A stretch of DNA of 48,803 bases from an uncultured Flavobacteriaceae bacterium (GTDB taxonomy: Bacteria > Bacteroidota > Bacteroidia > Flavobacteriales > Flavobacteriaceae): contig CALKEO010000007.1 in the NCBI GenBank assembly GCA_938088195.1, positions 1-48,803 of the forward strand, in the 5' to 3' direction. Made by a program: the position numbers and the translations under genes. Positions 11,199 through 29,638 of the stretch are shown in pieces. The notes below the pieces were generated by a model. That model did no database searches and was not told where the DNA came from. It worked only from the letters and a program-made list of their open reading frames with translations. Numbering within the stretch: position 1 is the stretch's first letter; each line of letters begins with the position of its first letter.

Positions 11199-11563
11199 AA
11201 AAAATAATTCTAATTATTAGTTTCTCTATTTTATTTTCATGTTCAAACTCAACTGAAAATAAACCTGAAAATATTATGTCTGAAGATGAAATGGTTGATT
11301 TTTTAGTTGATATTAATATAATTAACTCAAGTAGGTCTTTTAAAAACAATTCAAAAATAAATTATTATAATATCAAAGATTCTTTATTATACCGAAAGCA
11401 TAAAATAGATTCAGCAATGTTTGCTCGAAGTAATTTTTTTTATTCCTCAAAACCAAAAGCTTATTTAAAAATTTATTCAAAATTGGAATTAAAATTGAAT
11501 AAAATTAAAGATTCTTTAAACAAAGAGTTTAAAAACAATTCTAACAAAGACAAACCTATTTAA
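11195..11563 (+). CDS. DUF4296 lipoprotein
   Basis: A 122-residue protein with a lipoprotein signal: MKKIILIISFSILFSC, lipidated Cys at 16. After it comes the DUF4296-like core MSEDEMVDFLVDINII, then a Lys/Asn-rich tail with SMFARSNFFYSSKPKAYLKIYSKLE. The family is typical of Bacteroidetes and has no known function. It overlaps the dihydroorotase gene by 4 nt, so translation is likely coupled. It converges on the epimerase gene with a 9-nt gap. Confidence 0.75.
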   Translation: MKKIILIISFSILFSCSNSTENKPENIMSEDEMVDFLVDINIINSSRSFKNNSKINYYNIKDSLLYRKHKIDSAMFARSNFFYSSKPKAYLKIYSKLELKLNKIKDSLNKEFKNNSNKDKPI

Positions 11564-11572
11564 AAAATTATT

Positions 11573-12568: not shown

Positions 12569-12619
12569 GATGCTAATGTACTATTTTTTGATTTACTTTT
12601 TTCTTTAATACAAGAGGTA

Positions 12620-12627
12620 TATATTTG
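12620..12627 (+). promoter_or_regulatory. Candidate -7 element (TATATTTG) for tyrS
   Basis: Exact match to TAnnTTTG, 14 nt before the tyrS ATG, which implies a very short leader. The closest upstream TTG (12588-12590) leaves 29 nt, longer than the usual spacing, so the -33 box is weak or absent. Confidence 0.45.
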
Positions 12628-12641
12628 TTAAAATTAGTGTA

Positions 12642-13934
12642 ATGTCAAAAAACTTTATTAATGAACTCCGCTGGAGAGGAATGTTACAGGACATTGTTCC
12701 TGGGTGTGAGGAAAAGTTATTAGAAGAATCCGTTTCAGGTTACATCGGATTTGATCCCACAGCAGATTCGTTACACATTGGAAGTTTAGTTCAAATTTTA
12801 ATATTAATGCATTTCCAAAACTCAGGACATAAACCAATTGTTTTAATTGGAGGTGCTACAGGTATGATAGGAGACCCATCTGGCAAATCATCAGAAAGAA
12901 ATTTATTATCAAAATCTGAATTAGAAAAGAATATTAAAGGAATTAAATCTCAGCTTTCTAAATTTTTAGATTTTGACTCAAATGAAAAAAATTCTGCACT
13001 AATATGTGACAATAATGATTGGTTTAGCGATATTAATTTAATTGATTTTATTAGAGATACAGGGAAGCATTTGACTGTTAATTATATGGTTGCAAAAGAT
13101 TCGGTAAAAAAAAGATTAAAAAAAGATTCAAAAGAAGGTATGTCTTTCACTGAATTTACCTATCAAATAATTCAGGCATATGATTTTTATCATTTATTTA
13201 AAAATCAAAATTGTGTTTTACAAATGGGAGGAAGTGATCAATGGGGAAATATTACTAGCGGCACGGAACTAATTAGAAAAAAAACTGGTGAAAAAGCTTT
13301 TGCTATGACTTGCCCTCTTATTACTAAGGCCGATGGAAGTAAATTTGGAAAGACAGAAGATGGTAATGTTTGGCTGGATCCAGAAAGAACATCGCCATAT
13401 AAATTTTATCAGTACTGGCTTAATATCTCTGATGAAGATGCAATAAAATACATAAAGATTTTTACTTTTTACTCTAAAGATCAAATTGAGGAATTTATTT
13501 TAGTTCATAAAAAATCTCCTCACCTTAGGTCGCTTCAAAAAATTATTTCATCTGATTTAACTAAACTTGTTCACTCAACTGACGACTTAGAAAAGGCGAT
13601 TTCAGCCTCAAACATATTATTCGGTAAATCAACTTCAAAAGATTTAGCATCTTTAGATGAAAACACCTTTCTAGATATTTTTAAAGGAGTTCCAAAAGTT
13701 GAATTATCTTCTACTATTTTTAATTCTAAATTGAGCATAATTGATTTTCTTCATAAATCCGGGTTTTTATCATCTAAATCTGAAATTAATAGAGGAATTA
13801 AAGAAAACTCAATATCAATTAATAAAGAAAAGATAAATGCAGATTTTTCTATCTCTAAATCAAATTTAATTTGTAAAAGATATATTTTAGCGCAGAGAGG
13901 AAAAAAGAATTATTATTTAATAATAATTAATTAA
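12642..13934 (+). CDS. tyrS: Tyrosyl-tRNA synthetase
   Basis: A 430-residue class I aminoacyl-tRNA synthetase. YIGFDPTADSLHIGSL (34-49) contains the HIGH-type signature HIGS; GGSDQWGNI is the Tyr-specific region, and KADGSKFGKTEDG (about residues 225-240) is the KMSKS-type loop in its TyrS form KFGKT. The C-terminal portion is an S4 RNA-binding domain. The length is normal. The 3' end overlaps the convergent LuxE-like gene by 8 nt. Confidence 0.97.
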   Translation: MSKNFINELRWRGMLQDIVPGCEEKLLEESVSGYIGFDPTADSLHIGSLVQILILMHFQNSGHKPIVLIGGATGMIGDPSGKSSERNLLSKSELEKNIKGIKSQLSKFLDFDSNEKNSALICDNNDWFSDINLIDFIRDTGKHLTVNYMVAKDSVKKRLKKDSKEGMSFTEFTYQIIQAYDFYHLFKNQNCVLQMGGSDQWGNITSGTELIRKKTGEKAFAMTCPLITKADGSKFGKTEDGNVWLDPERTSPYKFYQYWLNISDEDAIKYIKIFTFYSKDQIEEFILVHKKSPHLRSLQKIISSDLTKLVHSTDDLEKAISASNILFGKSTSKDLASLDENTFLDIFKGVPKVELSSTIFNSKLSIIDFLHKSGFLSSKSEINRGIKENSISINKEKINADFSISKSNLICKRYILAQRGKKNYYLIIIN

Positions 13935-14883
13935 ACATTTGATTGCATCCCCTTATTTCTGACTCATTAAGCCTTCCTGAAATTGTATAAGTTTCATTTT
14001 CAAAAACCTGACCAATATCATCAGTAGCTATAAAAGCAATTGAATGTTCATTTGCTAAATCAATAATATTAATTGCGCCTTTTCCACAGTTGTTGACTGC
14101 CAATGGATTATTAATATCTCTAACAAATGTTTTCATCCATGGTGGATTTTTAAATAACCCTTTTTCTTTTGAGTATGCCTGTGAAAATAATTCAGTCATT
14201 CCATATTCAGAATGAATATTTTTTGTTCCATAGCCTGCTTTTAGTTTTTTATGTAATTCATCTCTGCTAATTTCTTTTTTTCTTCCCTTCATACCTCCAG
14301 TTTCTACAATAATTAAATCACTATTAACAATTGTGTATTTTTCTATAAAATCCAATAAAGCAAAGCTGACACCAAATAAAATTACTTTTGAGTTATTAAC
14401 TTTTTTCAAAGTGTCGTATAATTCCGAATAATTATTCAAGTAAAATTTACTTTCATCAAAACAGGATGTTTTAATAAAATCGTCAATCATGTAGACTAAA
14501 GAAGAATGTTTTTGTTCTAGATAAGAGGGTAGAAGAGCTAAAAAAATATAATCTTTAATTGGGCCATAAAAAATTTCAAATGATTTTCTAAAACTTTGGA
14601 TATATTTATTAATATCGCTAACGTGATTTATACTTCTTTCTCCTCCAGTTCCACTACTTTTAAAAACATGTGTAATTTTTTTTTTATTAGAGATGACTTT
14701 ATGAGTTTTAAAAAATTGAATTGGCAAGAAAGGGATTTGATTTAATTCTTTAACGTCACTTGGTATAATTTTCAATAACTTACAGTATTGATTATAAATT
14801 AAATTTTTGTTGAATTGATTATTAAATAAAGCAATAGCTTTTTTTTTAAACTCTAGTTCAGAATTAATATTGAATGGATTCAA
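13927..14883 (-). CDS. LuxE-like acyl-protein synthetase/acyltransferase
   Basis: A 318-residue protein of the adenylate-forming family related to LuxE, the acyl-protein synthetase of bioluminescence. Landmarks are IPFLPIQFFKTHKV near residue 50, FKSSGTGG (adenylate-binding Ser/Thr-Gly loop), VETGGMKGRKKEISR and the EYGMTELFSQAY segment that fits the A5 motif of this superfamily. No luxC, luxD, luxA or luxB gene lies nearby, so light production is not suggested. It probably activates a carboxylic acid as an acyl-adenylate for an unknown acceptor. It is a single-gene unit on the minus strand. Confidence 0.78.
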   Translation of the reverse strand: MNPFNINSELEFKKKAIALFNNQFNKNLIYNQYCKLLKIIPSDVKELNQIPFLPIQFFKTHKVISNKKKITHVFKSSGTGGERSINHVSDINKYIQSFRKSFEIFYGPIKDYIFLALLPSYLEQKHSSLVYMIDDFIKTSCFDESKFYLNNYSELYDTLKKVNNSKVILFGVSFALLDFIEKYTIVNSDLIIVETGGMKGRKKEISRDELHKKLKAGYGTKNIHSEYGMTELFSQAYSKEKGLFKNPPWMKTFVRDINNPLAVNNCGKGAINIIDLANEHSIAFIATDDIGQVFENETYTISGRLNESEIRGCNQMFN

Positions 14884-15006
14884 TTTTTATTTCAAATTTA
14901 ATCAAAACCTTATTAAAATACTTTGTTAGTTTATTGCTAATTCTAGTATTAATTAATTGTTAAGTAAGACCATTAAAAAATTAAGATTGATTAGTTTTAA
15001 AAAAAA

Positions 15007-15687
15007 ATGTCAAGTATGATCAAGATTTTAGTGGTTGATGATGATCCAGATATCATTGAAATTTTAAGATATAATCTTTCTCTTGCCGGATATCAGGTTA
15101 AAACTGCTTTTAATGGAAAAGAAGCGGTAAAAAAAGCTAAATTATTTTTGCCTGAAATTATTTTATTAGACATAATGATGCCAGAAATGGACGGAATCGA
15201 AGCGTGCACTCAAATAAAATCGTTACCATCTTTAAATAAAACAATGATTATATTTTTAAGTGCTAGAAGTGAAGATTTTACTCAAATTGCTGCTTTTGAT
15301 GCAGGAGGAGACGATTATATATCAAAACCTGTTAAACCTAAAATCTTATTAAGGAAAATACGATCTGTTGTTAAAAGAATACATTCGAGTGTAAACGAAA
15401 ACACAAGAATTGAATTAGATAATATCGTAATTGACAGAAATGAATATTTAGTAAAAATTGATAACAATAATATTAAATTACCTAGAAAAGAATTTGAATT
15501 ATTTTTTTTATTAGCTTCTAAACCTAGAAAAGTATTTACCAGAGATGAGATCATGAGTAAAGTTTGGGGAATCAATGTTGTGGTAGGGGACAGAACAATT
15601 GATGTTCATATTAGAAAATTAAGAGAAAAAATCGGAGATTTACGTTTTAAAACAGTAAAAGGGGTAGGCTATAAGTTTGTCCAATAA
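15007..15687 (+). CDS. OmpR/PhoB-family response regulator
   Basis: A 226-residue regulator. The receiver domain has the acidic pair DDD (11-13), the phosphorylation site Asp55 in LLDIMMPEMDG, and the conserved Lys in YISKPVKP. The C-terminal winged-helix domain has FELFFLLASKPRKVFTRDEIM and VVGDRTIDVHIRKLREKIG, the OmpR/PhoB DNA-binding signature. It forms a pair with the histidine kinase that starts within or just after its last codons. ATG at 15007; a second in-frame ATG at 15016 would remove three residues. The 123-nt upstream gap shows no clear promoter. Confidence 0.93.
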   Translation: MSSMIKILVVDDDPDIIEILRYNLSLAGYQVKTAFNGKEAVKKAKLFLPEIILLDIMMPEMDGIEACTQIKSLPSLNKTMIIFLSARSEDFTQIAAFDAGGDDYISKPVKPKILLRKIRSVVKRIHSSVNENTRIELDNIVIDRNEYLVKIDNNNIKLPRKEFELFFLLASKPRKVFTRDEIMSKVWGINVVVGDRTIDVHIRKLREKIGDLRFKTVKGVGYKFVQ

Positions 15688-15691
15688 TTTT

Positions 15692-16723
15692 ATGCCTTTG
15701 TTCAATAAATCTAAAGTTCAGTCATTATTTATTTCAATTATTCTTAGTTTTCTATTGATAACAAGCCTTTTGGTTTATAACTATTTTTCTGACGATGATA
15801 TAAAGCATTTACTAGTTCTTGTTATCCCATTGTTTGTATTTTCCTTTTTGATAGTTTATATATATTTAGAATTCTACGTATTTAAAAAAATAAAAAATCT
15901 TTATCGTGATTTAATTCCTGAAAATAATGAAGAAGAGAACTCGTTAGTTTCAACAAGCATGGATCAATTAATTGATGACCTCAAAAAATTTTCTAAAGAA
16001 AGTCAAACTGAAATCAAATCCATGCAAGAAAAAGAAAACTTCAGAAGAGATTTTATTGGAAATTTAGCTCATGAATTAAAAACCCCTTTATTTACTTCCC
16101 AAAGCTATATTTTAACTTTGGTTGATGGAGCTTTAAAAGACAAAAATGTTAATTTAAAATACTTAAAGATTGCTGAAAAAGCTATAGAAAGATTAATTTT
16201 TATTGTTAAAGATTTAGATTTGATAACAAAGTTAGAATCCGAAGGTCTAAAACTAGATAAATCAAAGTTTAATATAATTTCTTTAATAAATAATGTATTT
16301 GAAATGTTAGAACTTCAAGCTAGTAAAAAGAAAATCACGTTAGCTTTAGGTTCAAAAAATATAAGAGTAAATGTTAATGGAGATGAAGAGAAAATACATC
16401 AAGTATTAACTAATTTAATTGAAAATTCTGTTAAATATGGAAGAGAATCTGGAACAACTGAGGTTTCAGTTGAAAATATAGTAGAAAATAAAGTTATAGT
16501 TAGAATAACAGATAATGGTAATGGAATTCAAAAAGCAAATTTAAAAAGGTTATTTGAAAGGTTTTTTAGAATTGAAAATTCTGGTAGCAGGTCCACCGGA
16601 GGGTCAGGATTAGGTCTGGCTATTGTTAAACATATAATTGATGCTCACAACGAGAAAATATATGTTGAAAGTGATTATGGTGTAGGTTCTGAATTCTCAT
16701 TTACTTTAGAAAAATCAAATTAA
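15692..16723 (+). CDS. Membrane sensor histidine kinase
   Basis: From the ATG at 15692 the protein has 343 residues. Two membrane helices (about 11-30 and 40-60) with almost no periplasmic loop are followed by a short linker, the H-box NLAHELKTPLF with His127, then the N, G1 and G2 boxes (NLIENSVKYG, ITDNGNGI, GGSGLGLAIVKHI). No HAMP domain is evident. With so small an outside loop it probably senses a membrane state or a partner protein. A TTG at 15677 overlapping the regulator stop is an alternative start. The cognate regulator lies directly upstream. Confidence 0.9.
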   Translation: MPLFNKSKVQSLFISIILSFLLITSLLVYNYFSDDDIKHLLVLVIPLFVFSFLIVYIYLEFYVFKKIKNLYRDLIPENNEEENSLVSTSMDQLIDDLKKFSKESQTEIKSMQEKENFRRDFIGNLAHELKTPLFTSQSYILTLVDGALKDKNVNLKYLKIAEKAIERLIFIVKDLDLITKLESEGLKLDKSKFNIISLINNVFEMLELQASKKKITLALGSKNIRVNVNGDEEKIHQVLTNLIENSVKYGRESGTTEVSVENIVENKVIVRITDNGNGIQKANLKRLFERFFRIENSGSRSTGGSGLGLAIVKHIIDAHNEKIYVESDYGVGSEFSFTLEKSN

Positions 16724-16760
16724 TTATTTTAAGTTTGTTTTATTCTTAAAAAACTAATTC

Positions 16761-17441
16761 TTGGGAAGTAAAAACAAATTAAAAAGATTCATTGAAAATG
16801 AAACTTTTTCTAATGTAATTCAACCTACAAGAGAAGAATTAATTTCTAATAAATTTCATTACAAAGGAAATTGGAATAATCTTTATTTTAAAAACAAAAA
16901 TCCTATTGTAGTTGAGCTAGGTTGTGGAAAAGGTGAGTACACTGTAAGTTTAGCAAAATCAAACCCCAAAACAAATTATATCGGAATAGATATAAAGGGA
17001 GCTAGATTTTGGAGAGGAGCAAAGACTTCGCTAAAAGAAAAATTAGATAATGTTGTTTTTTTGAGAACTCAGATTGAATTAATTGACTTAGTTTTTGAAA
17101 AAAATGAAGTACAAGAAATTTGGTTAACTTTTCCAGATCCTCAGATCAAATTTCAAAGGTTAAAGCATAGACTGACAAATCCTTTTTTTTTGAAACTTTA
17201 TAAAAAAATCTTAAGACAAGAAGGATTAGTTCATCTTAAAACGGATAGTGAATTTCTTCATGGTTATACTTTGGGAGTTTTAGAGAGTTTTAATATAAAG
17301 CCAATATTTTCAAATCATAATATATACAAAAATAATAACGCACCCTTTGATGTAATTAATATCAAAACTCATTATGAAAAGATGTTTTTAGAATCGAATA
17401 AAAATATTTCATATTTATGCTTTAATTTTTTTAATGAATAA
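16761..17441 (+). CDS. trmB: tRNA (guanine-N7-)-methyltransferase, TTG start
   Basis: A 226-residue SAM-dependent methyltransferase for G46 of tRNA. VELGCGKGEY (51-60) is the SAM-binding motif I, and WLTFPDPQIKFQRLKHRLTN is the family signature near the active site. The N-terminus MGSKNKLKRFIENETF matches flavobacterial TrmB closely, which fixes the start at the TTG at 16761; no in-frame ATG is available there. The gene overlaps the next one by 8 nt. Confidence 0.93.
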   Translation: MGSKNKLKRFIENETFSNVIQPTREELISNKFHYKGNWNNLYFKNKNPIVVELGCGKGEYTVSLAKSNPKTNYIGIDIKGARFWRGAKTSLKEKLDNVVFLRTQIELIDLVFEKNEVQEIWLTFPDPQIKFQRLKHRLTNPFFLKLYKKILRQEGLVHLKTDSEFLHGYTLGVLESFNIKPIFSNHNIYKNNNAPFDVINIKTHYEKMFLESNKNISYLCFNFFNE

Positions 17442-17766
17442 AAAATTAGATTTTTTTGAACGTATTTATGATGTGGTTTCTAAAATTCCAAGTGGTCGAG
17501 TTTCTACCTACGGTGCGATAGCTAGTTTTTTGGGCACTAAAAATAGCGCAAGAGTGGTAGGATGGGCCATGAACGCTTCTCATTTGAAAGGAAATATTCC
17601 TGCTCACAGAGTTGTGAACCGAATTGGTTTATTAACGGGAAAAAATCACTTTTTTGGAACTAATTTAATGCAACAACTATTACAAAATGAAGGTATTGAG
17701 GTGAAAAATAATCAAGTCACTAATTTTAAAAATATTTTTTGGGATCCATCCTTAGAATTACAATAA
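17434..17766 (+). CDS. Alkyltransferase-like protein (MGMT fold without catalytic Cys)
   Basis: A 110-residue protein with only the DNA-binding domain of O6-methylguanine-DNA methyltransferase. It has IPSGRVSTYGAIA (18-30), ARVVGWAMN, and PAHRV at 56-60. Active methyltransferases have PCHR; Ala57 replaces the acceptor Cys, so it cannot take up an alkyl group. Alkyltransferase-like proteins of this kind bind O6-alkylguanine lesions and hand them to nucleotide excision repair, a known role that I infer here. It overlaps trmB by 8 nt. Confidence 0.88.
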   Translation: MNKKLDFFERIYDVVSKIPSGRVSTYGAIASFLGTKNSARVVGWAMNASHLKGNIPAHRVVNRIGLLTGKNHFFGTNLMQQLLQNEGIEVKNNQVTNFKNIFWDPSLELQ

Positions 17767-17782
17767 ATTACACACTTAAGCT

Positions 17783-17790
17783 TATATTTG
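17783..17790 (+). promoter_or_regulatory. Candidate -7 element (TATATTTG) for the Mrp ATPase gene
   Basis: Exact TAnnTTTG match in the 42-nt gap before the Mrp ATPase gene. It leaves 18 nt to the TTG start at 17809, consistent with a short leader. No good -33 TTG is visible. Confidence 0.45.
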
Positions 17791-17808
17791 TATTTTAATT
17801 TATATTGA

Positions 17809-18936
17809 TTGAAACCAAGCAAAGACATTATATTATCGCTTTTAAAAACTATTTATTTAGAAAATGGTAAAAACGACATTGTTTCTAATAAATGTATAAC
17901 AAATGTTATCGTTTTTGAAAACGAAGTAATTATTGATTTAGAAATTAATAATCCTACGTTACAGTCAAAGAATAAAATTAAAGCATCAATTAACGATGTC
18001 TTAAAATCAAAATTTAATCAAATTGACGTAAAAGTTAATTTTAAAATTACCAAAACAACTAGTAAAACAATTTTAAATGATTCCAGAGTTTTAGAAAATG
18101 TTCAAAATATCATCGCTGTTAGTTCTGGAAAAGGGGGCGTTGGTAAATCTACAGTAACTGCTAATCTTGCAATTTCATTACAAAAAATGGGATTTTCAGT
18201 TGGAGTTTTAGATGCAGATATTTATGGACCCTCCATTCCTATGATGTTTGATGTGGTTGATAAAAAGCCTTTAGCAGTTAATTTAAATGGGAAATCTAAA
18301 ATGAAGCCCATTGAAAATTTTGGTATTAAAATTTTATCTATAGGTTTTTTTACCAAAATGGATCAAGCTGTTATATGGAGAGGGCCAATGGCCTCTAAAG
18401 CATTGAATCAAATGATATTTGATTCTGAATGGGGAAATTTAGATTTTTTGTTAATTGATCTCCCACCAGGGACTGGAGACATCCATTTAAGTATTATGCA
18501 AGCTTTACCAATTTCAGGGTCAATAGTTGTTAGTACACCACAAAATGTAGCTTTAATTGATGCTAGAAAAGGAGTTTCTATGTTTAAACAAGAAAATATT
18601 AATGTTCCTGTCTTAGGTATAATTGAAAATATGGCATATTTTTCTCCAAGCGAGCTTCCTGGTAAAAAATATTATTTATTTGGAAAAGAGGGTGCAAAAA
18701 ATTTATCAAAGGACTTAGGTGTTCCTTTTTTGGGTGAAGTTCCACTGGTTCAAAGCTTAAGAGAAGCCGGAGATATTGGAAGACCTGCGGCGCTCCAAGA
18801 TGAATCAGAAATAAAAGATGCATTTAATTTAATTTCAAAAAATATGATATCAGAATTATTATTACGAAATAAAAAACTCCCAGTTACTGAGGTCATAAAA
18901 ATAAAAACAATGTCTGGGTGTTCAGCAATAAATTAA
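17809..18936 (+). CDS. apbC: Mrp/ApbC-type Fe-S carrier ATPase, TTG start
   Basis: A 375-residue P-loop protein with an N-terminal MIP18/DUF59 domain (about residues 1-85) and a MinD-like ATPase domain. The deviant Walker A is SSGKGGVGKST at 105-115; DADIYGPSIPMMF and LLIDLPPGTGD follow. Mrp proteins carry or insert Fe-S clusters. The C-terminal CxxC found in many homologues is not present in the usual place; ENMAYFSPSELPGKKYYLFG occupies that area. The start is TTG at 17809: no in-frame ATG fits and the domain begins there. The NifU-like gene follows after 5 nt. Confidence 0.9.
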   Translation: MKPSKDIILSLLKTIYLENGKNDIVSNKCITNVIVFENEVIIDLEINNPTLQSKNKIKASINDVLKSKFNQIDVKVNFKITKTTSKTILNDSRVLENVQNIIAVSSGKGGVGKSTVTANLAISLQKMGFSVGVLDADIYGPSIPMMFDVVDKKPLAVNLNGKSKMKPIENFGIKILSIGFFTKMDQAVIWRGPMASKALNQMIFDSEWGNLDFLLIDLPPGTGDIHLSIMQALPISGSIVVSTPQNVALIDARKGVSMFKQENINVPVLGIIENMAYFSPSELPGKKYYLFGKEGAKNLSKDLGVPFLGEVPLVQSLREAGDIGRPAALQDESEIKDAFNLISKNMISELLLRNKKLPVTEVIKIKTMSGCSAIN

Positions 18937-23142: not shown

Positions 23143-23856
23143 ATGTTTGAAAGTGTATTAATTAGACTAAATAAGTTTATCTCTAATTCTGGAATTTGTA
23201 ACAGAAGACAAGCAGATGAATATATTGTGCAAGGTAGAGTTCGGGTAAACGGAAAAATCCTAAATACACTAGGCTCTAAAATATCATTAAAAGATGTTGT
23301 AGAACTTGATGGAAAAAAAATTATTCCAACAAAAATGGAATATATAATTTTAAATAAACCAAAAGGGTTTCATTGTGTGCACTCAAAATCTAATGTTAAA
23401 ACTATTTTTTCTTTGATATCGTCTCTAGAGGATGTAAGTAGATTTACTTCTTTAGATTTTTTGAGAGATAATTATACTGGACTTATTGTTATATCAAATG
23501 ACACTAAATTTATTAACCAGATGCACAATAAATTACAATCATTGATACAAATTTTTCATTTAAAACTAAATATTGATTTTTTAAAAAAAGACTTAAAAAT
23601 CATCAAGGATTTTGATTCAAAATATAATTTAAAAATTAAGTCAATAAATTTTGTTGATGGAGCTAATAAAAATGAAATTGGATTAGAAACTAGTGCTTGC
23701 TCTATAAAGGACATAGAAAAAATTTTTTTGAAATTTGATTACAAAATAATTTCTTGCGACAGGGTTCTTTTTTCCAACTTAACTAAAAAAGATTTGTCGA
23801 GAGGGCAATGGAGGAGGATGAATAAACAAGAACTTATAAATTTAAAATCTTTTTAA
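23143..23856 (+). CDS. RsuA/RluB-family pseudouridine synthase homologue with degraded active site
   Basis: A 237-residue protein with an intact S4 RNA-binding domain (about residues 8-55: RLNKFISNSGICNRRQADEY) and the fold landmark ILNKPKG (69-75). The catalytic signature of this family, GRLDxxTxGL, is replaced by TSLDFLRDNYTGL (102-114): the Gly-Arg pair is lost and three extra residues sit between LD and GL. The second conserved block, usually a Gly-rich NRxVRR segment, reads ETSACSIKDIEKIF (182-195). The ending CDRVLFSNLTKKDLSRGQWRRM is well kept. The frame is whole, so this may be a pseudoenzyme kept for RNA binding. Confidence 0.82.
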   Translation: MFESVLIRLNKFISNSGICNRRQADEYIVQGRVRVNGKILNTLGSKISLKDVVELDGKKIIPTKMEYIILNKPKGFHCVHSKSNVKTIFSLISSLEDVSRFTSLDFLRDNYTGLIVISNDTKFINQMHNKLQSLIQIFHLKLNIDFLKKDLKIIKDFDSKYNLKIKSINFVDGANKNEIGLETSACSIKDIEKIFLKFDYKIISCDRVLFSNLTKKDLSRGQWRRMNKQELINLKSF

Positions 23857-24575
23857 TTTCTACAAGCCCACACAAATCCTCTTGTTAACAATTTCCAACC
23901 GTCAGGATATCTAATAAATTCGTTAGGATCATGTCCAATTGAAATATAAAAAACTTTTCCTTTTCCATATTTTTTTTTCCATGCAACTGGCATGACCACA
24001 CCATCAATCCATGAGTAAAATTTATTGTCAAATGTGGTATCAGCTATAATTTCAATATTAGGGTCGAAGTGCATATAATATTGTTCTGTGAAAATTTTAA
24101 AATTATTAAGTCCCTCAGTTAATGGATCATTTAACATATTAACCTCAAAATTTACTTTTCCACCTGGATGAGCAACAAATTGACCACCTATCATAAACTG
24201 ATAATTGGTTTTGGTTCTATATGAATCCGCAAGACCACCATGAGCACCAGCAATTCCAACACCATTATTAATGGCTTTTACTAAGTTATCTGCTTGATTG
24301 TTAGAAATATCTGAAAGAGTAACAGACTGAATTATCAAATCAAATTTTGTTAATGAGTCATAATTATCATATACCTCGAAATTATTAGATTCAGTGATTT
24401 TTGCATTTTGAGATATCAACCATTTAATTACATTATCAGCAAAAACCTTTGGTTGATGTCCTTTCCACCCCCCCCATACAACCAATATATTTTTATTTTC
24501 TAATGATTGACTGAAATTAAGATTATTCGATAAAATTAAAATTAGAAAAACCAATAAAACTTTTTTGATTTTCAT
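23853..24575 (-). CDS. Exported ThuA-domain protein
   Basis: From the ATG at 24575 the protein has 240 residues with a clear signal peptide (MKIKKVLLVFLILILSNNLNFSQ). The ThuA domain, a glutamine-amidotransferase-like fold, follows: ILVVWGGWKGHQP (30-42), GIAGAHGG, and YGKGKVFYISIGHDPNEF. A longer version from 24614 would put 13 polar residues before the signal peptide and is less likely. ThuA proteins occur with oxidative sugar genes; some act on 3-keto sugars. It is divergent from the Gfo/Idh gene, and its stop overlaps that of the pseudouridine synthase homologue. Confidence 0.88.
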   Translation of the reverse strand: MKIKKVLLVFLILILSNNLNFSQSLENKNILVVWGGWKGHQPKVFADNVIKWLISQNAKITESNNFEVYDNYDSLTKFDLIIQSVTLSDISNNQADNLVKAINNGVGIAGAHGGLADSYRTKTNYQFMIGGQFVAHPGGKVNFEVNMLNDPLTEGLNNFKIFTEQYYMHFDPNIEIIADTTFDNKFYSWIDGVVMPVAWKKKYGKGKVFYISIGHDPNEFIRYPDGWKLLTRGFVWACRN

Positions 24576-24701
24576 GGGTTTTAAATAGTAATCAAATTCA
24601 TGAAATTTATTCATCTATCTTTTTTTAATTTTTAAAGATTAACTTTAAAATTACGTCTATTTTAATTATTTTAAAATAAGTTATTACTTATATTTAATTA
24701 A

Positions 24702-26177
24702 ATGAAAAAAAAGTCAAGAAGAAATTTTTTAAAAAAATCATCGGTGTTTGGCGCAGGTGTTTTTATAGTTCCAAGAAATGTTTTGGGAGGTATAGGGTTT
24801 ACGGCACCAAGTGATCAATTAAACATTGCTGCTATTGGTGCAGGCGGAAAGGGCTCAGATATTCAAGATTCATGGGTTTCAAATGAAAGAGTTATTGCCT
24901 TGTGTGACGTTCATTTAGATGGTAAGCATGGAGTTATACAATCAATTCAAAAATACCCAAATGCGAGACTTTATGAAGATTTTAGAGAAATGCTTGATAA
25001 AGAGAAGGATTTAGATGCGGTTACTATTAGTACTCCAGACCACACTCATGGTGTAATTGCAAATAATGCTATGAACAGGGGCTTACATGTTTATGTCCAA
25101 AAACCTCTTACTCATAACATTGAAGAAGCTAGGCAATTAACTTTAACAGCAAAAAAAAATAAAGTTGTTACTCAGATGGGAAACCAAGGTGGTTCGAGTG
25201 TTGGGGTACAAAAAATTCAAGAGTGGGTTGACAATAAAATGATTGGTAAAATAAATAAAATTTATGCTTGGACCAATCGTCCTGTTTGGCCTCAAGGATT
25301 TCAAATGCCTAACAATGATTCAGATAAACCTAAAAATTTAAATTGGAATTTATGGTTGGGTCCTGCATCATATACGAACTATTCGTCTAATTTACACCCA
25401 TTTAATTGGAGAGGTTGGTGGGATTATGGTACTGGTGCGCTTGGGGATATGGGTTGCCATATTCTAGATGCTCCCTACAAAACACTTGGATTACATTACC
25501 CAACTGATGTTGAGTGCAGTGTTGGTGCAGTTTTTCAAAAACCATGGAGTTACAACTATGTTCCCAAAGGTTGTCCTTCTTCATCAATTGTAACTCTTCA
25601 TTTTGATAAAACAAAAAAAAATGACTCAAGAATTGAACTGGTTTGGATGGATGGAGGATTGAAACCCAGTCATCCAGATTTAATTCCAGCTGAGGATTAT
25701 TTAGGTGAAAAAAATAGTACAAATGGTATTTTGATGATTGGTGAAAAAGGTGTTATTGCATGCGGAGTTTATGGACTAAATGCTAAGCTTTATAGAAAAG
25801 GAAAAGAAACAATTCACTTAAATACTGATTTAATTTATAATAAAAGAAATAATCTCGATACAATTCACCATAAACAATGGATTGATGCTTGTAAAGAAGG
25901 ATACGGAAGTGACTCATTTCATAAACTTACTGCATCTTTTGATTATGCAGGACCATTTACTGAAACTGTTTTAATGGGTAATTTGGCAATTAGATCTTAT
26001 ATGGATATTGGTTCTCAGAAGTTAAAGTATTCGGACAATTACGTTCATATTAATGAGTACGATGTTTTCAAGGGAAGAAAAAAGCTGTTATGGGACGGCG
26101 ATAACATGAAAATTACAAATTTTGATACAGCTAATCGTTTTGTCGGCAGAGAAAGAAGACCTGGTTGGGAATTATAA
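24702..26177 (+). CDS. Tat-exported Gfo/Idh/MocA oxidoreductase
   Basis: A 491-residue protein. It begins with a twin-arginine signal (SRRNFLKKSSVFGAGVF, residues 5-21), then an NAD(P)-binding domain NIAAIGAGGKGSD (41-53) and the QKPLTHNI segment that replaces the usual EKP motif in this exported subfamily. The C-terminal half is the substrate domain, with GWWDYGTGALGDMGCHILD. It should be folded with its cofactor in the cytoplasm and then exported by the Tat system. It heads a group with a DUF1080 lipoprotein and a GMC enzyme; 3-keto-glycoside chemistry is likely. Confidence 0.9.
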   Translation: MKKKSRRNFLKKSSVFGAGVFIVPRNVLGGIGFTAPSDQLNIAAIGAGGKGSDIQDSWVSNERVIALCDVHLDGKHGVIQSIQKYPNARLYEDFREMLDKEKDLDAVTISTPDHTHGVIANNAMNRGLHVYVQKPLTHNIEEARQLTLTAKKNKVVTQMGNQGGSSVGVQKIQEWVDNKMIGKINKIYAWTNRPVWPQGFQMPNNDSDKPKNLNWNLWLGPASYTNYSSNLHPFNWRGWWDYGTGALGDMGCHILDAPYKTLGLHYPTDVECSVGAVFQKPWSYNYVPKGCPSSSIVTLHFDKTKKNDSRIELVWMDGGLKPSHPDLIPAEDYLGEKNSTNGILMIGEKGVIACGVYGLNAKLYRKGKETIHLNTDLIYNKRNNLDTIHHKQWIDACKEGYGSDSFHKLTASFDYAGPFTETVLMGNLAIRSYMDIGSQKLKYSDNYVHINEYDVFKGRKKLLWDGDNMKITNFDTANRFVGRERRPGWEL

Positions 26178-26253
26178 TTTATTTTTAGAGATATAATTTT
26201 ATGATTCGTCTAAAATTTTAATTAACTTTTGATTAAATCAATAAATTAGTTTC

Positions 26254-27006
26254 ATGAAAAAAATCTTTTATATTTTAATATTTTCTTCTCTATTCATTGC
26301 AGGTTGTAATAATCCGAAAAAAAATTCAAAAACTGTTAATTTAGAAAACGATATGGGTTCAAACCCTGAAGATAATTGGGTGTCATTAATTCAAGAAAAT
26401 TCTATGGATGGTTGGCACTACTTTCAGGATAACGGTAAAAAAACCGGTTGGGATATTAAGGATGGTGTTTTAACTTTCACATCTGCAAATGCAACTGGCG
26501 AGGGAGACAAAAGTCTTGTTAGTGATAAAGATTACACAAGTTTTAAAATTCATTTAGAATGGAAAGTAAGCTCAGGATCAAATAGTGGCTTTTTCTGGGG
26601 AGTAAAAGAGGATTTGAAATATGAGTTTCCATATGTTACCGGGCCAGAAATTCAAATTCTTGATCCAGCTGTTCCAGACCCACCTTTAACCCAAGCAGGT
26701 GCGCTGTATGGTATGGTAGTTCCATCAAAATGGGTTACTAAACCTGCAGGTGAGTGGAACAGTTATGATATAACAATTGATCATAATTCTAATCAAGGAA
26801 TAGTTGTTCACAATGGCACAAAAATTGTTGAGTTTCCGCTGAGTGGAGTCGAATGGGACAAGATGGTTGAACCAACGAAATTTAATAATTGTGACCAAAA
26901 GCCATGGCAAAATTGTGATTTTGGAAAATTTAAAACAGGTAAAATTTCTATTCAAGATCATCCTGGTGTTATTTCATTTAGAAATATCAAAATTTTAGAA
27001 TTATAG
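26254..27006 (+). CDS. DUF1080 (3-keto-disaccharide hydrolase-like) lipoprotein
   Basis: A 250-residue lipoprotein, with the lipidated Cys at 18 (SSLFIAGC). The DUF1080 domain is a concanavalin-like beta sandwich: WVSLIQENSMDGWHYF, then DKDYTSFKIHLEWKVSSGSN, SGFFWGV, GPEIQILD, AGALYGM, WNSYDITI and a C-terminal GKISIQDHPGVISFRNIKI. Members split 3-keto-glycosides made by sugar dehydrogenases. It lies 76 nt after the Gfo/Idh gene and 89 nt before the GMC gene. Confidence 0.9.
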   Translation: MKKIFYILIFSSLFIAGCNNPKKNSKTVNLENDMGSNPEDNWVSLIQENSMDGWHYFQDNGKKTGWDIKDGVLTFTSANATGEGDKSLVSDKDYTSFKIHLEWKVSSGSNSGFFWGVKEDLKYEFPYVTGPEIQILDPAVPDPPLTQAGALYGMVVPSKWVTKPAGEWNSYDITIDHNSNQGIVVHNGTKIVEFPLSGVEWDKMVEPTKFNNCDQKPWQNCDFGKFKTGKISIQDHPGVISFRNIKILEL

Positions 27007-27095
27007 ATTATTCACATCTAATTATAGATATAAGTAATTGATATAGTTCATGTTTCTAATAATGCTTTTATAATTTTAATTTTCAAAGAATAAAT

Positions 27096-28814
27096 ATGCA
27101 GATCAAAGAAAACTTAAAAGAATACGATGTTATAATTGTTGGTTCTGGTGCTGGAGGGGGAATGGCAACTAAAATTTTATCTGAAGCTGGTTTGTCAATA
27201 GCTATTGTTGAGGCTGGGCCTTATTTTGATCCTGCTAATCCTGATCAAATGACTCAAATGAAATGGGCTTATGATTCCCCAAGACGTGGAAGAGGAACAA
27301 CAAGACCTTTTGGAGATTTTGATCAAGCCTACGGAGGTTGGGATATAGAGGGAGAGCCATATTCTCAAGTTGGTGAAACACAATTTAGATGGTTTCGATC
27401 TAGAATGTTAGGAGGAAGAACCAACCATTGGGGAAGAATATCTTTGAGATTTGGACCTGATGATTTTAGAAAAAAATCTATAGATGGGCTCGGAGAGGAT
27501 TGGCCTATAACCTATGATGATATTAAACCTTATTACGATAAAGTAGATAAACTTATAGGTGTTTTTGGAAGTAAGGAAAATCTACCTAATGATCCTGATG
27601 GATTTTTTCTTCCTCCACCCAAGCCAAGACTTCATGAAATGTTTTATATAAAAGGAGCACGAAAAAGTAATGTGAAAGTTATGCCGTCCAGGTTGTCTAT
27701 ATTAACTAAAAGAATTAATAATGAAAGAGGAGTTTGTTTTTATTGTAGACAGTGTGCAAGAAGTTGTATGGCCTACGCTGATTTTTCGTCTGGATCATGT
27801 TTAATTTTTCCTGCTCAAAAATCTGGAGGTCAGATTGATATGTTTGTTAATTCTATGGTTAGATCAGTCACCACAAATGAAGAGGGTAAAGCAACAGGTG
27901 TATCTTACATAAATAAAGACGATAAAAAAGAATATAAATTAAAAGGAAAAGTTGTAGTTCTTGCAGCGTCAGCATGTAGTTCTGCCAGAATATTATTAAA
28001 CTCAAAAAGCAAACAACACCCCAATGGTTTAGGAAACAGTAGTGATATTGTTGGGAAGTATTTACATGACTCAACCGGCGGTGGAAGAATGGCATTTATA
28101 CCTGATTTGATGGACAGGAAAATTTATAATGAAGATGGTGTTGGAGGAATGCATGTATATTCTCCTTGGTGGTTGGATAATAAAAAGCTTAATTTTCCCA
28201 GAGGCTATCATATTGAAGTTTGGGGTGGCATGGGCGCTCCATCCTATGGGACAGGTTTTAATGTTAATGCTTTTAATAAATTCTTTGGAATTCCAGTTGG
28301 AGGTTATGGTGATGTCTTGAGAAAAGACATGCGAAAATATTATGGATCGTTAATCGGAATGGATGGTAGAGGTGAGTCAGTTGCTATGAAAAGTAATTAC
28401 TGTGAAATTGACCCTAATCAAGTTGATGAGTATGGTGTCCCTACTTTAAGATTCAATTATAAATGGACAGAGCACGAAGTTAAGCAAGCTGAACACATGC
28501 AAAATACTTTTGAAGAGATTATACATAATATGGGAGCAATAGCTTTGGGAAATAAGGCTGACAAAAGCTCTAATTTTGGATTAACTAAACCAGGTGAAAT
28601 TATTCATGAAGTTGGTACAACTAGAATGGGTAATGATTCTAAAACATCAGTTGTTAATGAGTTTGAACAGCTTCATGACGTTTCCAATGTCTTTGTTGTT
28701 GATGCTGGGCCGTTTGTCTCTCAAGCAGATAAAAATCCAACTTGGACAATTATGGCTCTAGCTTGGAGGAGCTCTGATTATATTATAGACCAGTTCAAAA
28801 AACAAAATTTTTAA
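27096..28814 (+). CDS. GMC oxidoreductase with ferredoxin-like Cys motif
   Basis: A 572-residue FAD-dependent dehydrogenase of the GMC family. FAD motif: DVIIVGSGAGGGMATKIL (11-28). GGRTNHWGRIS (107-117) is the second FAD region. The C-terminal domain has HEVGTTRMG with the catalytic His area and NVFVVDAGPF. Residues 214-224 read CFYCRQCARSC (CxxCxxCxxxC), as in related enzymes where Cys residues bind an Fe-S cluster. The protein has no signal peptide; the next gene encodes a small subunit with one. It probably oxidises sugar C3 or similar hydroxyls in the periplasm. Confidence 0.9.
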   Translation: MQIKENLKEYDVIIVGSGAGGGMATKILSEAGLSIAIVEAGPYFDPANPDQMTQMKWAYDSPRRGRGTTRPFGDFDQAYGGWDIEGEPYSQVGETQFRWFRSRMLGGRTNHWGRISLRFGPDDFRKKSIDGLGEDWPITYDDIKPYYDKVDKLIGVFGSKENLPNDPDGFFLPPPKPRLHEMFYIKGARKSNVKVMPSRLSILTKRINNERGVCFYCRQCARSCMAYADFSSGSCLIFPAQKSGGQIDMFVNSMVRSVTTNEEGKATGVSYINKDDKKEYKLKGKVVVLAASACSSARILLNSKSKQHPNGLGNSSDIVGKYLHDSTGGGRMAFIPDLMDRKIYNEDGVGGMHVYSPWWLDNKKLNFPRGYHIEVWGGMGAPSYGTGFNVNAFNKFFGIPVGGYGDVLRKDMRKYYGSLIGMDGRGESVAMKSNYCEIDPNQVDEYGVPTLRFNYKWTEHEVKQAEHMQNTFEEIIHNMGAIALGNKADKSSNFGLTKPGEIIHEVGTTRMGNDSKTSVVNEFEQLHDVSNVFVVDAGPFVSQADKNPTWTIMALAWRSSDYIIDQFKKQNF

Positions 28815-28819
28815 TTCAA

Positions 28820-29527
28820 ATGGATAGAAGAGATAGTATAAAGTCAATTATGTTAGGCTCCATTGGAGTTGGAGTTCTTTTTGAAAGTTGTGTAAACGGA
28901 GTTAGTAACGAGGAGATAAAAAAAACTATCTCCAAATTTCAATATGGTAGAACTGAAAAAGAAAAAGCTTATGATAAAAAACTTTTTTCTATTCAATGTT
29001 TTAATAAAAAAGAAATGAAAACAATTACACAATTATGTAATTTAATTTTACCACCCAATGAATTTGGATCTATTATTGACGCAGAAGTTCCAGAGTTAAT
29101 AGAGTTTATGGCAAAGGACATTCCAAGTTATGAAACAACTATTAAAAATGGTTTGTCTCTTTTAAATCAATTTTCAATTAAGAATTATTCAAAGTCTTTC
29201 ATTGATTGTAATGAAAATCAACAAAAAGAATTTCTTGATGAAATGGCATATCCAGACCCAGATTTATCTAGCTCTGAACAAAAAGAAGAAGTGCAATGGT
29301 TTAGTTTGATGAGAAATTTAACTATGACAGGTTATTATACTTCTAAAGTAGGAATCAAAGAATTGGGTTATGTTGGTAATACACCTAATGTATGGGATGG
29401 TGTTCCAAAAGATGTTTTAGATCAATATGGTTTATCTTATGAAAAAGAATGGATTGATAAGTGTGTTGATCAATCTAAAAGAAATGAAACTGCCGTTTGG
29501 GATAATGATGGCAATCTCTTAACATAA
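28820..29527 (+). CDS. Gluconate 2-dehydrogenase subunit 3-like small subunit
   Basis: A 235-residue partner of the GMC enzyme, starting 5 nt after it. The N-terminus MDRRDSIKSIMLGSIGVGVLFESC has a twin-Arg pair and a hydrophobic stretch ending in Cys24, which looks like a Tat signal that may also be lipidated. The core contains TQLCNLILPPNEFGS and later LMRNLTMTGYYTSKVG, typical for the subunit 3 family. In gluconate and FAD glucose dehydrogenases this subunit carries the Tat signal for the complex. Its stop codon lies in the tRNA-Phe terminator stem. Confidence 0.88.
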   Translation: MDRRDSIKSIMLGSIGVGVLFESCVNGVSNEEIKKTISKFQYGRTEKEKAYDKKLFSIQCFNKKEMKTITQLCNLILPPNEFGSIIDAEVPELIEFMAKDIPSYETTIKNGLSLLNQFSIKNYSKSFIDCNENQQKEFLDEMAYPDPDLSSSEQKEEVQWFSLMRNLTMTGYYTSKVGIKELGYVGNTPNVWDGVPKDVLDQYGLSYEKEWIDKCVDQSKRNETAVWDNDGNLLT

Positions 29528-29562
29528 AAAAAGCCCCAATTAAATTATATAATTGGGACTTT
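29526..29562 (-). terminator. Intrinsic terminator of tRNA-Phe
   Basis: A 13-bp stem (29530-29542 with 29550-29562) with a 7-nt loop, followed on the minus strand by a run of seven U. One pair is G-U on the minus strand but C-A on the plus strand, so the stem favours minus-strand RNA. It also overlaps the stop codon of the plus-strand dehydrogenase subunit gene. Confidence 0.8.
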
Positions 29563-29565: not shown

Positions 29566-29638
29566 TGGTACCTCGCAGAATCGAACTGCGGACACAAGGA
29601 TTTTCAGTCCTTTGCTCTACCAACTGAGCTAAGGTACC
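29566..29638 (-). tRNA. tRNA-Phe (GAA)
   Basis: On the minus strand the sequence folds as a full cloverleaf. The acceptor GGTACCT pairs with AGGTACC, the D arm is AGCTCAGTTGGTAGAGC, and the anticodon stem GGA/TCC closes a CTGAAAA loop with anticodon GAA. The T arm is CGCAG-TTCGATT-CTGCG and the discriminator is A. The 3' CCA is not encoded. 73 nt. Confidence 0.97.

Follow-up and report, generated by a model that had tools for sequence, protein, structure and literature searches.

A conserved flavobacterial gene cluster with a four-cysteine GMC flavoprotein: probable front end of a glycosidase-independent 3-keto-glycoside pathway

Introduction

Published genetics connects the LacABC proteins, together with a DUF1080 protein, with the use of lactose (PMC9007349, available text). 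The same text describes BT2157 as a 3-ketotrehalose hydrolase, and BT2158 is described as a periplasmic glycoside 3-dehydrogenase in the available text of a second paper (PMC11300592).

The stretch of DNA analysed here (the window) consists of 48,803 nucleotides from an uncultured Flavobacteriaceae bacterium of marine type. An original prediction, made from its sequence, had proposed that five neighbouring genes form a complete set for periplasmic redox attack on glycosides, and had pointed to a 3-keto route linked to related gene sets in Bacteroidetes. The cluster was compared with the systems above and with related loci in other genomes.

The five-gene cluster and its conservation

Five adjoining open reading frames at positions 23853–29527 encode ThuA, Gfo/Idh/MocA, DUF1080, GMC and Gluconate_2-dh3 (SUB3) proteins, as read from the window translations. 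A Pfam profile search confirms the five genes where they had been predicted, with every protein above its gathering score.

The complete set, in identical order and with ThuA divergent, is present in 12 of 17 loci of the genus; the other five are truncated by a contig end. The same arrangement is found in L097 and L098, both from a neighbouring genus, and in two named contigs (L120 and L121) counted irrespective of genus. Wherever a genus locus is uncut at that point, its GMC-SUB3 pair adjoins DUF1080. As ThuA is divergent, it does not form one transcription unit with the other four genes. Retention of the set in draft genomes of about 1.4–1.9 Mb suggests that the set serves a common substrate.

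A consensus scan shows a terminator-like inverted repeat 3′ of the cluster (29530–29562, no strand assigned). The region has 5 terminator-like sites, with 3.1 expected in shuffled sequences, which is weak evidence for this repeat. A sigma-70 promoter scan of the region was uninformative (26 sites, 27.5 expected), and an Rfam scan of the window gave two tRNAs and nothing else.

Export signals

Four of the proteins had been said to carry their own export signal. This holds at the level of motifs for ThuA, Gfo, DUF1080 and SUB3, and the motifs recur in orthologs; the calls are a motif reading of the translations combined with ortholog comparison. ThuA has a hydrophobic N-terminal leader. Gfo has the Tat-type motif SRRNFLKK in its translation (codons at 24714–24737, forward strand), and an RR-type start is kept in the compared orthologs. 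The DUF1080 protein has a lipobox ending at Cys18, apparently lost in L121. SUB3 displays RR followed by Cys24, by motif a Tat signal and a lipoprotein cysteine, and the Cys24 codon (28889–28891, forward strand) is the predicted lipidation site. All 44 aligned SUB3 sequences have M1, R3, R4 and C24; they comprise the window sequence and 43 picked from 80 listed, mostly for a clean start. The GMC protein is without a leader of its own.

Gfo, DUF1080 and ThuA proteins

The Gfo/Idh/MocA oxidoreductase (24702–26177, forward strand) is 491 aa in length and is Tat-exported by motif. It scores 62.9 bits with GFO_IDH_MocA in Pfam (gathering score 24). It aligns with the structures 8tdf and 8tdh across about 400 residues, including the DHTH and KPLTH motifs (8tdf_A, E-value = 2.3e-96). 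The NCBIfam model of the BT_2158 glycoside 3-dehydrogenase, NF058561, gives 464 bits, below its curated cut-off of 750. At this cut-off Gfo does not qualify as a BT_2158 equivalent, and by its score it is only a sub-threshold relative of that family.

It is possible, though unlikely, that Gfo alone is the glycoside 3-dehydrogenase and that the GMC protein acts after cleavage on a different product, e.g. by re-oxidising the released sugar. The long alignment with its two motifs and the BT_2158 family match both agree with such a division of labour. The family score is, however, below the curated value, and the lacABC complex, whose GMC large subunit is of another subfamily, is reported in the available text of PMC9007349 as the Caulobacter lactose 3-dehydrogenase. 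In addition, a Pseudoalteromonas operon described below has GMC, SUB3 and DUF1080 genes and, in the part seen, no gene closely related to the exported Gfo.

The DUF1080 gene (26254–27006, forward strand) encodes a 250 aa lipoprotein of the 3-keto-disaccharide hydrolase family (PF06439, 3keto-disac_hyd), with a score of 130.3 bits (gathering score 26.8). Matches in the PDB are 3h3l (E-value = 2.3e-26), 8rr2 (5.5e-19) and 8tda (6e-19).

The ThuA-domain protein (23853–24614, reverse strand) has a chain length of 253 aa and scores 130.5 bits with PF06283 (gathering score 33.4). A sequence search of the PDB gave no match. Its AlphaFold model (mean pLDDT 84.0) matches the ThuA-like structures 4jqs, 1t0b and 4e5v, with a Foldseek E-value of 9.6e-12 for 4jqs_A. 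His and Gly positions are invariant in 8 of 8 aligned sequences.

The GMC flavoprotein and its small subunit

The GMC flavoprotein (27096–28814, forward strand) has 572 aa and both the N- and C-terminal Pfam GMC domains (GMC_oxred_C, 77.5 bits, gathering score 24.6). Its closest solved relatives are an FAD-dependent glucose dehydrogenase (FAD-GDH, 6a2u) and fructose dehydrogenase (7w2j). The protein is not of the LacA-like type known from the characterised LacABC system and belongs to another subfamily, here termed window-type. Identity to a LacA-like GMC group is 33%–35%, this group being named by inference, with Caulobacter LacA absent from the tree. Window-type and LacA-like proteins form separate groups in the tree (support 97/98 and 100/100). 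Membership of the window GMC in the LacA-like group is ruled out by the identity and the tree together. A LacA-like GMC is encoded by a separate gene in the same genome.

Alignments show a four-cysteine motif, C214-x2-C217-x2-C220-x3-C224 (27735–27767, forward strand), a predicted site of an iron-sulfur cluster. CxxCxxCxxxC is present in all 117 window-type GMC open reading frames and, in phylum-wide loci, in 17 of 17 that were called and 2 of 2 read by coordinate. It is found in none of 14 LacA-like rows. Three cluster cysteines are present in the LacA-like proteins and in the glucose dehydrogenase of known structure; C214, C220 and C224 align with Cys212, Cys218 and Cys222 of the dehydrogenase, and C217 is the added fourth. 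The presence of four cysteines in place of three predicts a [4Fe-4S] cluster instead of [3Fe-4S] in the window GMC. No description of a four-cysteine GMC dehydrogenase is present among the literature matches listed, a set whose scope leaves most subscription papers outside.

Other residues of the solved enzymes can be placed by alignment. His111 (codon at 27426–27428, forward strand), invariant in alignment A2, aligns with His105 of the Burkholderia cepacia glucose dehydrogenase, described in the accessible part of its source as the residue of covalent FAD attachment. His504 (28605–28607) and Asn547 (28734–28736), both on the forward strand, are the first and second residues of the His/Asn catalytic pair.

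The window-type GMC is found in 121 of 397 sampled genomes of the family and in 98 of 395 of the phylum. It represents a widespread, apparently uncharacterised subfamily across the Bacteroidota. Cultured relatives with this GMC include Zobellia, Cellulophaga and Maribacter.

The Gluconate_2-dh3 family small subunit, SUB3 (28820–29527, forward strand, 235 aa), follows the GMC gene after a gap of 5 bases and scores 96.9 bits in Pfam (gathering score 23.4). LacC is presumably a member of a Gluconate_2-dh3-like family as well. SUB3 is the next gene after 114 of the 115 window-type GMC open reading frames that have a neighbour, and of 17 distant phylum loci, 12 have a recognisable SUB3 next to GMC. 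The best PDB match of the single sequence was Nop56 (E-value = 0.069), taken as chance, and a profile search reached 0.13. The AlphaFold model, of moderate quality (mean pLDDT 76.3), had no Foldseek match in the PDB at E-values up to 0.001. A structural relationship of SUB3 to the gamma subunit of GDH or the small subunit of fructose dehydrogenase is thus unsupported by sequence, profile and fold searches, the last with a model of only moderate quality.

Linked genes in outside operons and on contig C64

Pseudoalteromonas donghaensis has, on one strand, the gene order Gfo-TIM-MFS-DUF1080-GMC-SUB3-TIM. The GMC is on the window side, with 43% identity to the window GMC among the matches listed. 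In two flavobacterial loci, L145 and L155, one strand carries genes for Gfo, TIM, window-type GMC, SUB3 and DUF1080, preceded by an MFS-like gene and with a LacA-like GMC nearby. ThuA is absent from the stretches seen of these operons, and their Gfo resembles not the exported Gfo of the window but a leaderless Gfo on another contig of this genome (C64). There, homologs of the Pseudoalteromonas MFS, Gfo and TIM genes (61%, 40% and 67% identity, among the matches listed) are consecutive. By homology, this row provides candidate genes for an importer and a cytoplasmic reductase and isomerase.

The original prediction had noted that no transporter or glycoside hydrolase gene is in the cluster; this is true of the five genes, and a matching importer gene is present elsewhere, on C64. 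The cluster cannot be termed a complete set, given the importer, leaderless Gfo and TIM genes on C64; a whole-genome search for Cytochrom_C (PF00034) gave three matches, all on contigs other than the window's own (C7).

In the 87 loci compared outside the genus, a gene of the largest DUF1080 group occurs no more than six genes from GMC in 5, and one of the main exported-type Gfo group in 16; a few further DUF1080 and Gfo genes are not members of these groups (e.g. in L100 and L171). ThuA was seen outside the genus in two named loci. In the 397 family genomes, window-type GMC and relatives of the Gfo (E-value up to 1e-120) occur together in 87, GMC alone in 34, Gfo alone in 42 and neither in 234 (Fisher odds ratio 14, uncorrected for phylogeny and genome size).

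These data bear on an unlikely alternative, that GMC-SUB3 serves in the periplasm as a general dehydrogenase of aldoses or polyols, similar to FAD-glucose or fructose dehydrogenase, and feeds electrons to the respiratory chain. Gfo, DUF1080 and ThuA would then constitute a separate 3-keto pathway as in Bacteroides, where the available text of PMC11300592 describes the Gfo-type glycoside 3-dehydrogenase BT2158. Such an enzyme would fit the closest solved relatives and the observation that GMC and SUB3 stay together outside the genus, where few other genes accompany them regularly. It does not explain why Pseudoalteromonas and several flavobacteria have the pair in the midst of DUF1080, Gfo, TIM and MFS genes, or the adjacency of DUF1080 in all genus loci uncut there.

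Glycerol genes near GMC-SUB3 pairs

In 9 of the 87 loci outside the genus, window-type GMC-SUB3 is followed on its own strand by genes for a kinase of the FGGY family and for GlpD- and GlpF-like proteins. The kinase of L133 passes the glycerol kinase equivalog (703.8, cut-off 590.35). In this genome, the strand that encodes the LacA-like GMC-SUB3 also carries glpK, glpD and glpF, four genes further downstream; in 9 of 12 congeneric loci, too, glpK is no more than a few genes away from the LacA-like pair. Of the remainder, L235 has full flanks but no glpK and two are cut by contig ends. No description of this linkage was found among the literature matches listed, most subscription papers being outside their scope.

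The presence of glp genes near both types of pair makes glycosyl-glycerols candidate substrates. The cluster, or at least GMC-SUB3, might be specialised for glucosylglycerol, galactosylglycerol or algal glycolipid head groups, with 3-oxidation and cleavage freeing glycerol for GlpF, GlpK and GlpD. The linkage near both types of pair points this way, yet the specialisation is improbable. No glp gene adjoins the cluster in the window, the nine loci may stem from one or two lineages, and the middle gene is called short in L175 and L178. For the LacA-like pairs, glpK is missing in L235, an opposite-strand gene intervenes in 4 of the 9 glpK loci (L237, L242, L247 and L250), and four LacA-like loci outside the genus have no glpK. 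Adjacency may also mean shared regulation only.

Chance assembly of unrelated genes is excluded by the synteny (12 complete and five cut genus loci, and four further loci).

Proposed pathway

The cluster probably forms the periplasmic first part of a 3-keto-glycoside pathway that needs no glycosidase. This reading is based on the family assignments, the fixed synteny in the genus, and the outside operons in which DUF1080-GMC-SUB3 stands together with other genes of the pathway. The 3-keto-glycoside route originally predicted is to this extent upheld; against it are a GMC that is not LacA-like, a Gfo below the BT_2158 cut-off, and outside operons that share DUF1080, GMC and SUB3 but have neither ThuA, in the stretches seen, nor an exported-type Gfo. 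The low counts of DUF1080, exported-type Gfo and ThuA near GMC outside the genus, the recognition of SUB3 in no more than 12 of 17 distant phylum loci, and the lack of a Cytochrom_C match on contig C7 also speak against it. The GMC could also oxidise free sugars at C1, as its solved relatives do. Two published results count against the reading as well: according to the available text of PMC9007349, none of ten DUF1080 genes in one Pedobacter gave a lactose phenotype, and according to that of PMC11501099, deletion of BT2157 or BT2158 caused no raffinose-family defect.

What is observed here is the protein families, their export motifs, the synteny, the GMC subfamily and the linked genes; the individual reactions, their order and the substrate are inferred. 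In the 3-keto-glycoside pathway, GMC would fold in the cytoplasm with FAD and its Fe-S cluster and then bind SUB3, whose Tat signal would carry the pair out and which, as a lipoprotein, would anchor it. GMC may then oxidise a ring hydroxyl (C3) of the glycoside, its electrons being handed on via FAD and the Fe-S cluster to a periplasmic acceptor, and the DUF1080 lipoprotein may cleave the 3-keto-glycoside. The Tat-exported Gfo, with bound NAD, would perform keto/hydroxyl exchange or serve as a second 3-dehydrogenase, and ThuA may act on the keto sugar. Products would be taken up by the MFS importer and be reduced and isomerised by the Gfo-TIM pair of contig C64.

If this is true, a GMC type with the spread given above would be a glycoside opener missed by glycosidase-based surveys. 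The fourth cysteine bears on how the Fe-S relay varies in a family whose enzymes are employed in glucose sensors, and the glpK-glpD-glpF linkage points to a concrete substrate class. A wider proposal is unlikely to hold, namely that a Bacteroidota-wide GMC subfamily, with [4Fe-4S] replacing [3Fe-4S], dispenses with a glycosidase and opens small glycosides, among them the glycosyl-glycerols of phytoplankton, at C3, glycerol being freed in the periplasm.

Comparison with known systems

Comparison with characterised 3-keto-glycoside clusters, suggested originally as a check, shows DUF1080, the small subunit and the Gfo-type family to be shared; a LacA-like GMC, a Cytochrom_C (PF00034) match on the same contig and a score at the BT_2158 cut-off are not.

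LacABC with DUF1080 of Caulobacter crescentus and Bacteroidetes is similar in that a multi-subunit periplasmic dehydrogenase is encoded near a signal-peptide DUF1080 protein (PMC9007349, available text). GMC and small subunit are together in the LacA-like loci seen here, and the window large subunit is likewise adjoined by a Gluconate_2-dh3-like small subunit. The window differs in its GMC subfamily (33%–35% identity to the LacA-like group, Caulobacter LacA being absent from the tree), in having no Cytochrom_C (PF00034) match on its contig, and in the addition of exported Gfo and ThuA.

The direct-electron-transfer FAD-GDH of B. cepacia and fructose dehydrogenase share with the window the GMC fold, the His/Asn pair, the FAD-carrying His and a small partner subunit, and the three Fe-S cysteines of FAD-GDH are at matching positions. 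In contrast, the window GMC has a fourth cysteine completing CxxCxxCxxxC, the SUB3 model has no PDB fold match, and the cluster has no multi-heme cytochrome gene (no PF00034 match on the contig).

BT2156–BT2160 of Bacteroides thetaiotaomicron differs from the window in that no GMC is named there in the available texts of PMC9007349, PMC11300592 and PMC11501099, and the window Gfo is below the curated BT_2158 family cut-off. Both have a periplasmic Gfo-type dehydrogenase and a DUF1080 3-keto hydrolase, as far as those texts describe the Bacteroides system.

The P. donghaensis plasmid operon (D0907_RS17095–RS17125) carries MFS, two TIM genes and a Gfo related to that of C64, has no ThuA in the stretch seen, and its GMC (43% identity, among the matches listed) has only three Fe-S cysteines. 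Like the window, it has DUF1080, a window-side GMC and SUB3 in one run.

Cluster layout and export motifs

The window is the entire contig G000:C7 (48,803 bases) of a draft genome of 1.53 Mb that is about 80% complete. The five genes of the original prediction (positions 23853–29527) were all found where it had placed them, and all five proteins exceed the Pfam gathering scores. On the plus strand, the Gfo, DUF1080, GMC and SUB3 genes are separated by gaps of 76 (Gfo–DUF1080), 89 (DUF1080–GMC) and 5 bases (GMC–SUB3); the ThuA gene is divergent, with an intervening gap of 87 bases. A minus strand tRNA gene (positions 29566–29638) is directly downstream of SUB3 and is a possible cluster boundary. 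A 106 amino acid antisense open reading frame within the Gfo gene (positions 25402–25722) displays no sign of being a real gene.

Export motifs were read in four of the five proteins, the number given in the original prediction: a Tat signal in Gfo, a lipobox in DUF1080, a Tat signal and then a lipoprotein cysteine in SUB3, and a hydrophobic leader in ThuA. These are kept in the orthologs inspected, the exception being the DUF1080 lipobox, apparently lost in L121. An alignment of 44 SUB3 proteins (that of the window and 43 picked from 80) shows M1, R3, R4 and C24 in every sequence. Motif reading gave no export motif for the GMC itself. By analogy with the hitchhiker arrangement of the Burkholderia cepacia glucose dehydrogenase (PMC6719666, available text), the GMC may be carried out by SUB3.

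Conservation in the genus

Of 22 genus genomes, 18 carry the window-type GMC (the window's own and 17 of 21 relatives); completeness is 51%–80% in the other four. All five genes are found in identical order at 12 of the 17 genus loci; the other five loci end at a contig edge. The same five genes are found at L097 and L098 of a neighboring genus, and at L120 and L121 on named contigs. Three congeneric genomes (G010, G006, G001) are metagenome-assembled Flavobacteriaceae/Cryomorphaceae and apparently marine, judged by sample names.

Twelve genes were compared over genus loci L040–L054. The GMC has the highest median identity to the window, 88% (15 loci), followed by DUF1080 (78%, 15 loci), Gfo (70%, 14), SUB3 (68%, 14) and ThuA (58%, 13); for the seven flanking genes the values are 54%–78%.

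The GMC subfamily and its cysteine motif

Two further GMC genes are found in this genome, one paired with a SUB3 on contig C2 and the other on C40. Among the best 20 of 683 plasmid matches, the C2 GMC shows 45%–60% identity, including 53% to Halomonas and Xanthomonas proteins. Among the best 30 of 630 for the window GMC, Hymenobacter gives 59%, Pseudoalteromonas 43% and the others 34% or less. In a maximum likelihood tree of 41 hand-picked rows, which did not include Caulobacter LacA, 26 four-cysteine rows and 14 rows of the second group are separate (support 97/98 and 100/100). We infer the name LacA-like for the second group from its distribution and the available text of PMC9007349. Membership of the window GMC in that group is ruled out by the separate tree groups and the pattern of plasmid matches. 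The Pseudoalteromonas GMC is on the window side, on a long branch that makes its placement less sure. In G374 and G192 (the genomes of L097 and L098; 85%–87% complete) a LacA-like query matched the window-type GMC alone.

The B. cepacia glucose dehydrogenase holds a [3Fe-4S] cluster by Cys212, Cys218 and Cys222 and has covalent FAD at His105 (PMC6719666, in the part available). In a HMMER alignment these correspond to C214, C220, C224 and H111 of the window GMC. Compared with that enzyme, the window GMC has an extra cysteine, C217, which gives CxxCxxCxxxC, a ferredoxin-type spacing. The motif is found in 117 of 117 window-type open reading frames of at least 540 residues (108 distinct) and at 19 of 19 sampled phylum-wide loci (17 by open reading frame call, two by coordinate). 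Among the tree rows it is in none of the 14 LacA-like rows nor in the Pseudoalteromonas row; C-x5-C-x3-C is kept in all. H111 is found in 26 of 26 four-cysteine rows, the Pseudoalteromonas row and 1 of 14 LacA-like rows. All of 16 aligned sequences keep the His/Asn pair H504 and N547. From its sequence, the window GMC is predicted to hold a [4Fe-4S] cluster.

Neighbors outside the genus

The window-type GMC is found in 121 of 397 family genomes (E-value up to 1e-100) and 98 of 395 phylum genomes (up to 1e-110). SUB3 is present at 86 of 87 non-genus loci, and 25 have an AP_endonuc_2 protein at +2. A Gfo gene of the main exported-type group is six genes away or less in 16 of 87 and a DUF1080 gene of the largest such group in 5, counts of single groups outside which some further Gfo and DUF1080 genes lie. 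ThuA was found at L137 and L192; SusC-like receptors, sulfatases and FGGY kinases are further common neighbors. SUB3 was recognized alongside the GMC at 12 of 17 distant phylum loci with a GMC open reading frame, and at the other five is absent or was missed by the open reading frame caller and BLAST cut-off. With such varied neighbors, the GMC-SUB3 pair therefore serves several carbohydrate settings.

Four flavobacterial loci (L145, L155, L161, L164) have window-type GMC, SUB3 and DUF1080 plus a second GMC, about 30%–33% identical; the latter is LacA-like in the tree at the first three, and that of L164 was not included.

A possible link to glycerol

Window-type GMC-SUB3 is followed, at 9 of the 87 non-genus loci, by three genes of the same strand: those for an FGGY kinase, a GlpD-like dehydrogenase and a GlpF-like channel. 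With 703.8 bits, the kinase of L133 clears the cut-off of the glycerol kinase equivalog (590.35); the L110 GlpD-like protein is under its own (308.3 against 360), and the middle gene is called shorter at L175 and L178. In the window's own genome, the LacA-like pair is followed on its strand, after four intervening genes, by glpK (708.3 bits, glycerol kinase profile), glpD and glpF. glpK is in the same stretch as this pair at 9 of 12 congeneric loci, four of them with an intervening opposite-strand gene; two are cut at contig ends and one is without glpK. It was not found at four LacA-like loci outside the genus.

Two GMC subfamilies are near the same glycerol genes, which suggests that glycerol can be a product. 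On this hypothesis glycosyl-glycerols would be candidate substrates; the glp-linked loci may stem from few events.

The LacA-like pair is in a second sugar-dehydrogenase cluster, L057 (positions 7130–17979 of G000:C2:8000-27000), with genes for Gfo, LacA-like GMC, SUB3, esterase, a YceI-like protein, sulfatase, glpK, glpD and glpF.

Candidate pathway genes in other organisms and elsewhere in the genome

Pseudoalteromonas donghaensis (L198) has a row of Gfo, TIM barrel, MFS, DUF1080, GMC, SUB3 and TIM barrel genes. In Xanthomonas sacchari (L200), SUB3 and DUF1080 accompany a GMC of the LacA-like group; cytochrome c, TIM barrels, Gfo and a nucleoside permease are encoded on the opposite strand. 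At flavobacterial loci L145 and L155, Gfo, TIM, window-type GMC, SUB3 and DUF1080 are on one strand, preceded by an MFS-like gene, with the LacA-like GMC nearby on the opposite strand. What these outside operons have in common with the window is DUF1080, GMC and SUB3; ThuA is missing from the stretches inspected. Contig C64 (L231) of the window's genome has MFS, Gfo and TIM in a row (61%, 40% and 67% identity to the Pseudoalteromonas homologs), candidates by homology for an importer and cytoplasmic half. The Gfo of the outside operons is like the leaderless C64 Gfo, unlike the Tat-exported Gfo of the window.

The exported Gfo is tied to the window-type GMC by genus synteny and co-occurrence. 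Among 397 family genomes, 87 have both (Gfo relatives at E-value up to 1e-120), 34 GMC only, 42 Gfo only and 234 neither; the odds ratio is 14, from raw genome counts uncorrected for phylogeny and genome size. In G182 (L219) a Gfo relative (60%) is about 8 kb upstream of the GMC. TIM-barrel neighbors are plausible pathway members, since an enzyme with the annotation putative sugar phosphate isomerase is described as carrying out beta-elimination on a 3-keto-glycoside (PMC10628242, in part).

A second Gfo, about 56%–60% identical to that of the window, is at L215 (G000:C50, positions 1–1350), where the contig end truncates it. Relatives of this second Gfo are widespread in the family, and at L218 and L219 such a relative has a TIM-barrel protein gene a few genes away. 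L059 (G000:C30, positions 37–7136) has an exported TIM-barrel protein, sulfatase-modifying factor, Gfo, DUF1080, a GH109-type protein and a weakly sulfatase-like protein. This set could be a further glycosidase-independent route, acting on a sulfated glycan. At L232 (G000:C1, positions 8714–10245) a small cytochrome c with a leader adjoins a glucose/sorbosone dehydrogenase; it is a possible candidate for the electron acceptor of the GMC pairs.

Comparison with known 3-keto-glycoside systems

Gfo aligns to the solved dehydrogenases 8tdf and 8tdh across about 400 residues. With 464 bits it falls short of the 750-bit cut-off of the curated BT_2158 glycoside 3-dehydrogenase family (NCBIfam NF058561) and was rejected as a member. 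Several solved structures with sugar hydrolase annotation are relatives of DUF1080, among them 8rr2, named a 3-keto-disaccharide hydrolase domain protein. ThuA has a predicted ThuA-like fold, and searches of the PDB by sequence, profile and fold detected no solved relative of SUB3.

In the available text of PMC9007349, LacABC and a DUF1080 protein act in lactose use by Caulobacter, BT2157 is named a 3-ketotrehalose hydrolase, Bacteroidetes have LacABC-like genes adjoining DUF1080, and a Pedobacter with ten DUF1080 genes shows a lactose phenotype for none. BT2158 is described as a periplasmic glycoside 3-dehydrogenase; growth on trehalose, leucrose and palatinose is lost in the mutant (PMC11300592, in part). 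Deletion of BT2157 or BT2158 gave no defect on raffinose-family sugars in the portion available of PMC11501099.

The five-gene cluster probably works like these systems, which partly supports the original prediction, but its GMC is outside the LacA-like group and its Gfo outside the curated BT_2158 family. With these two differences from the known systems, the cluster yields a testable iron-sulfur prediction and a candidate substrate class.
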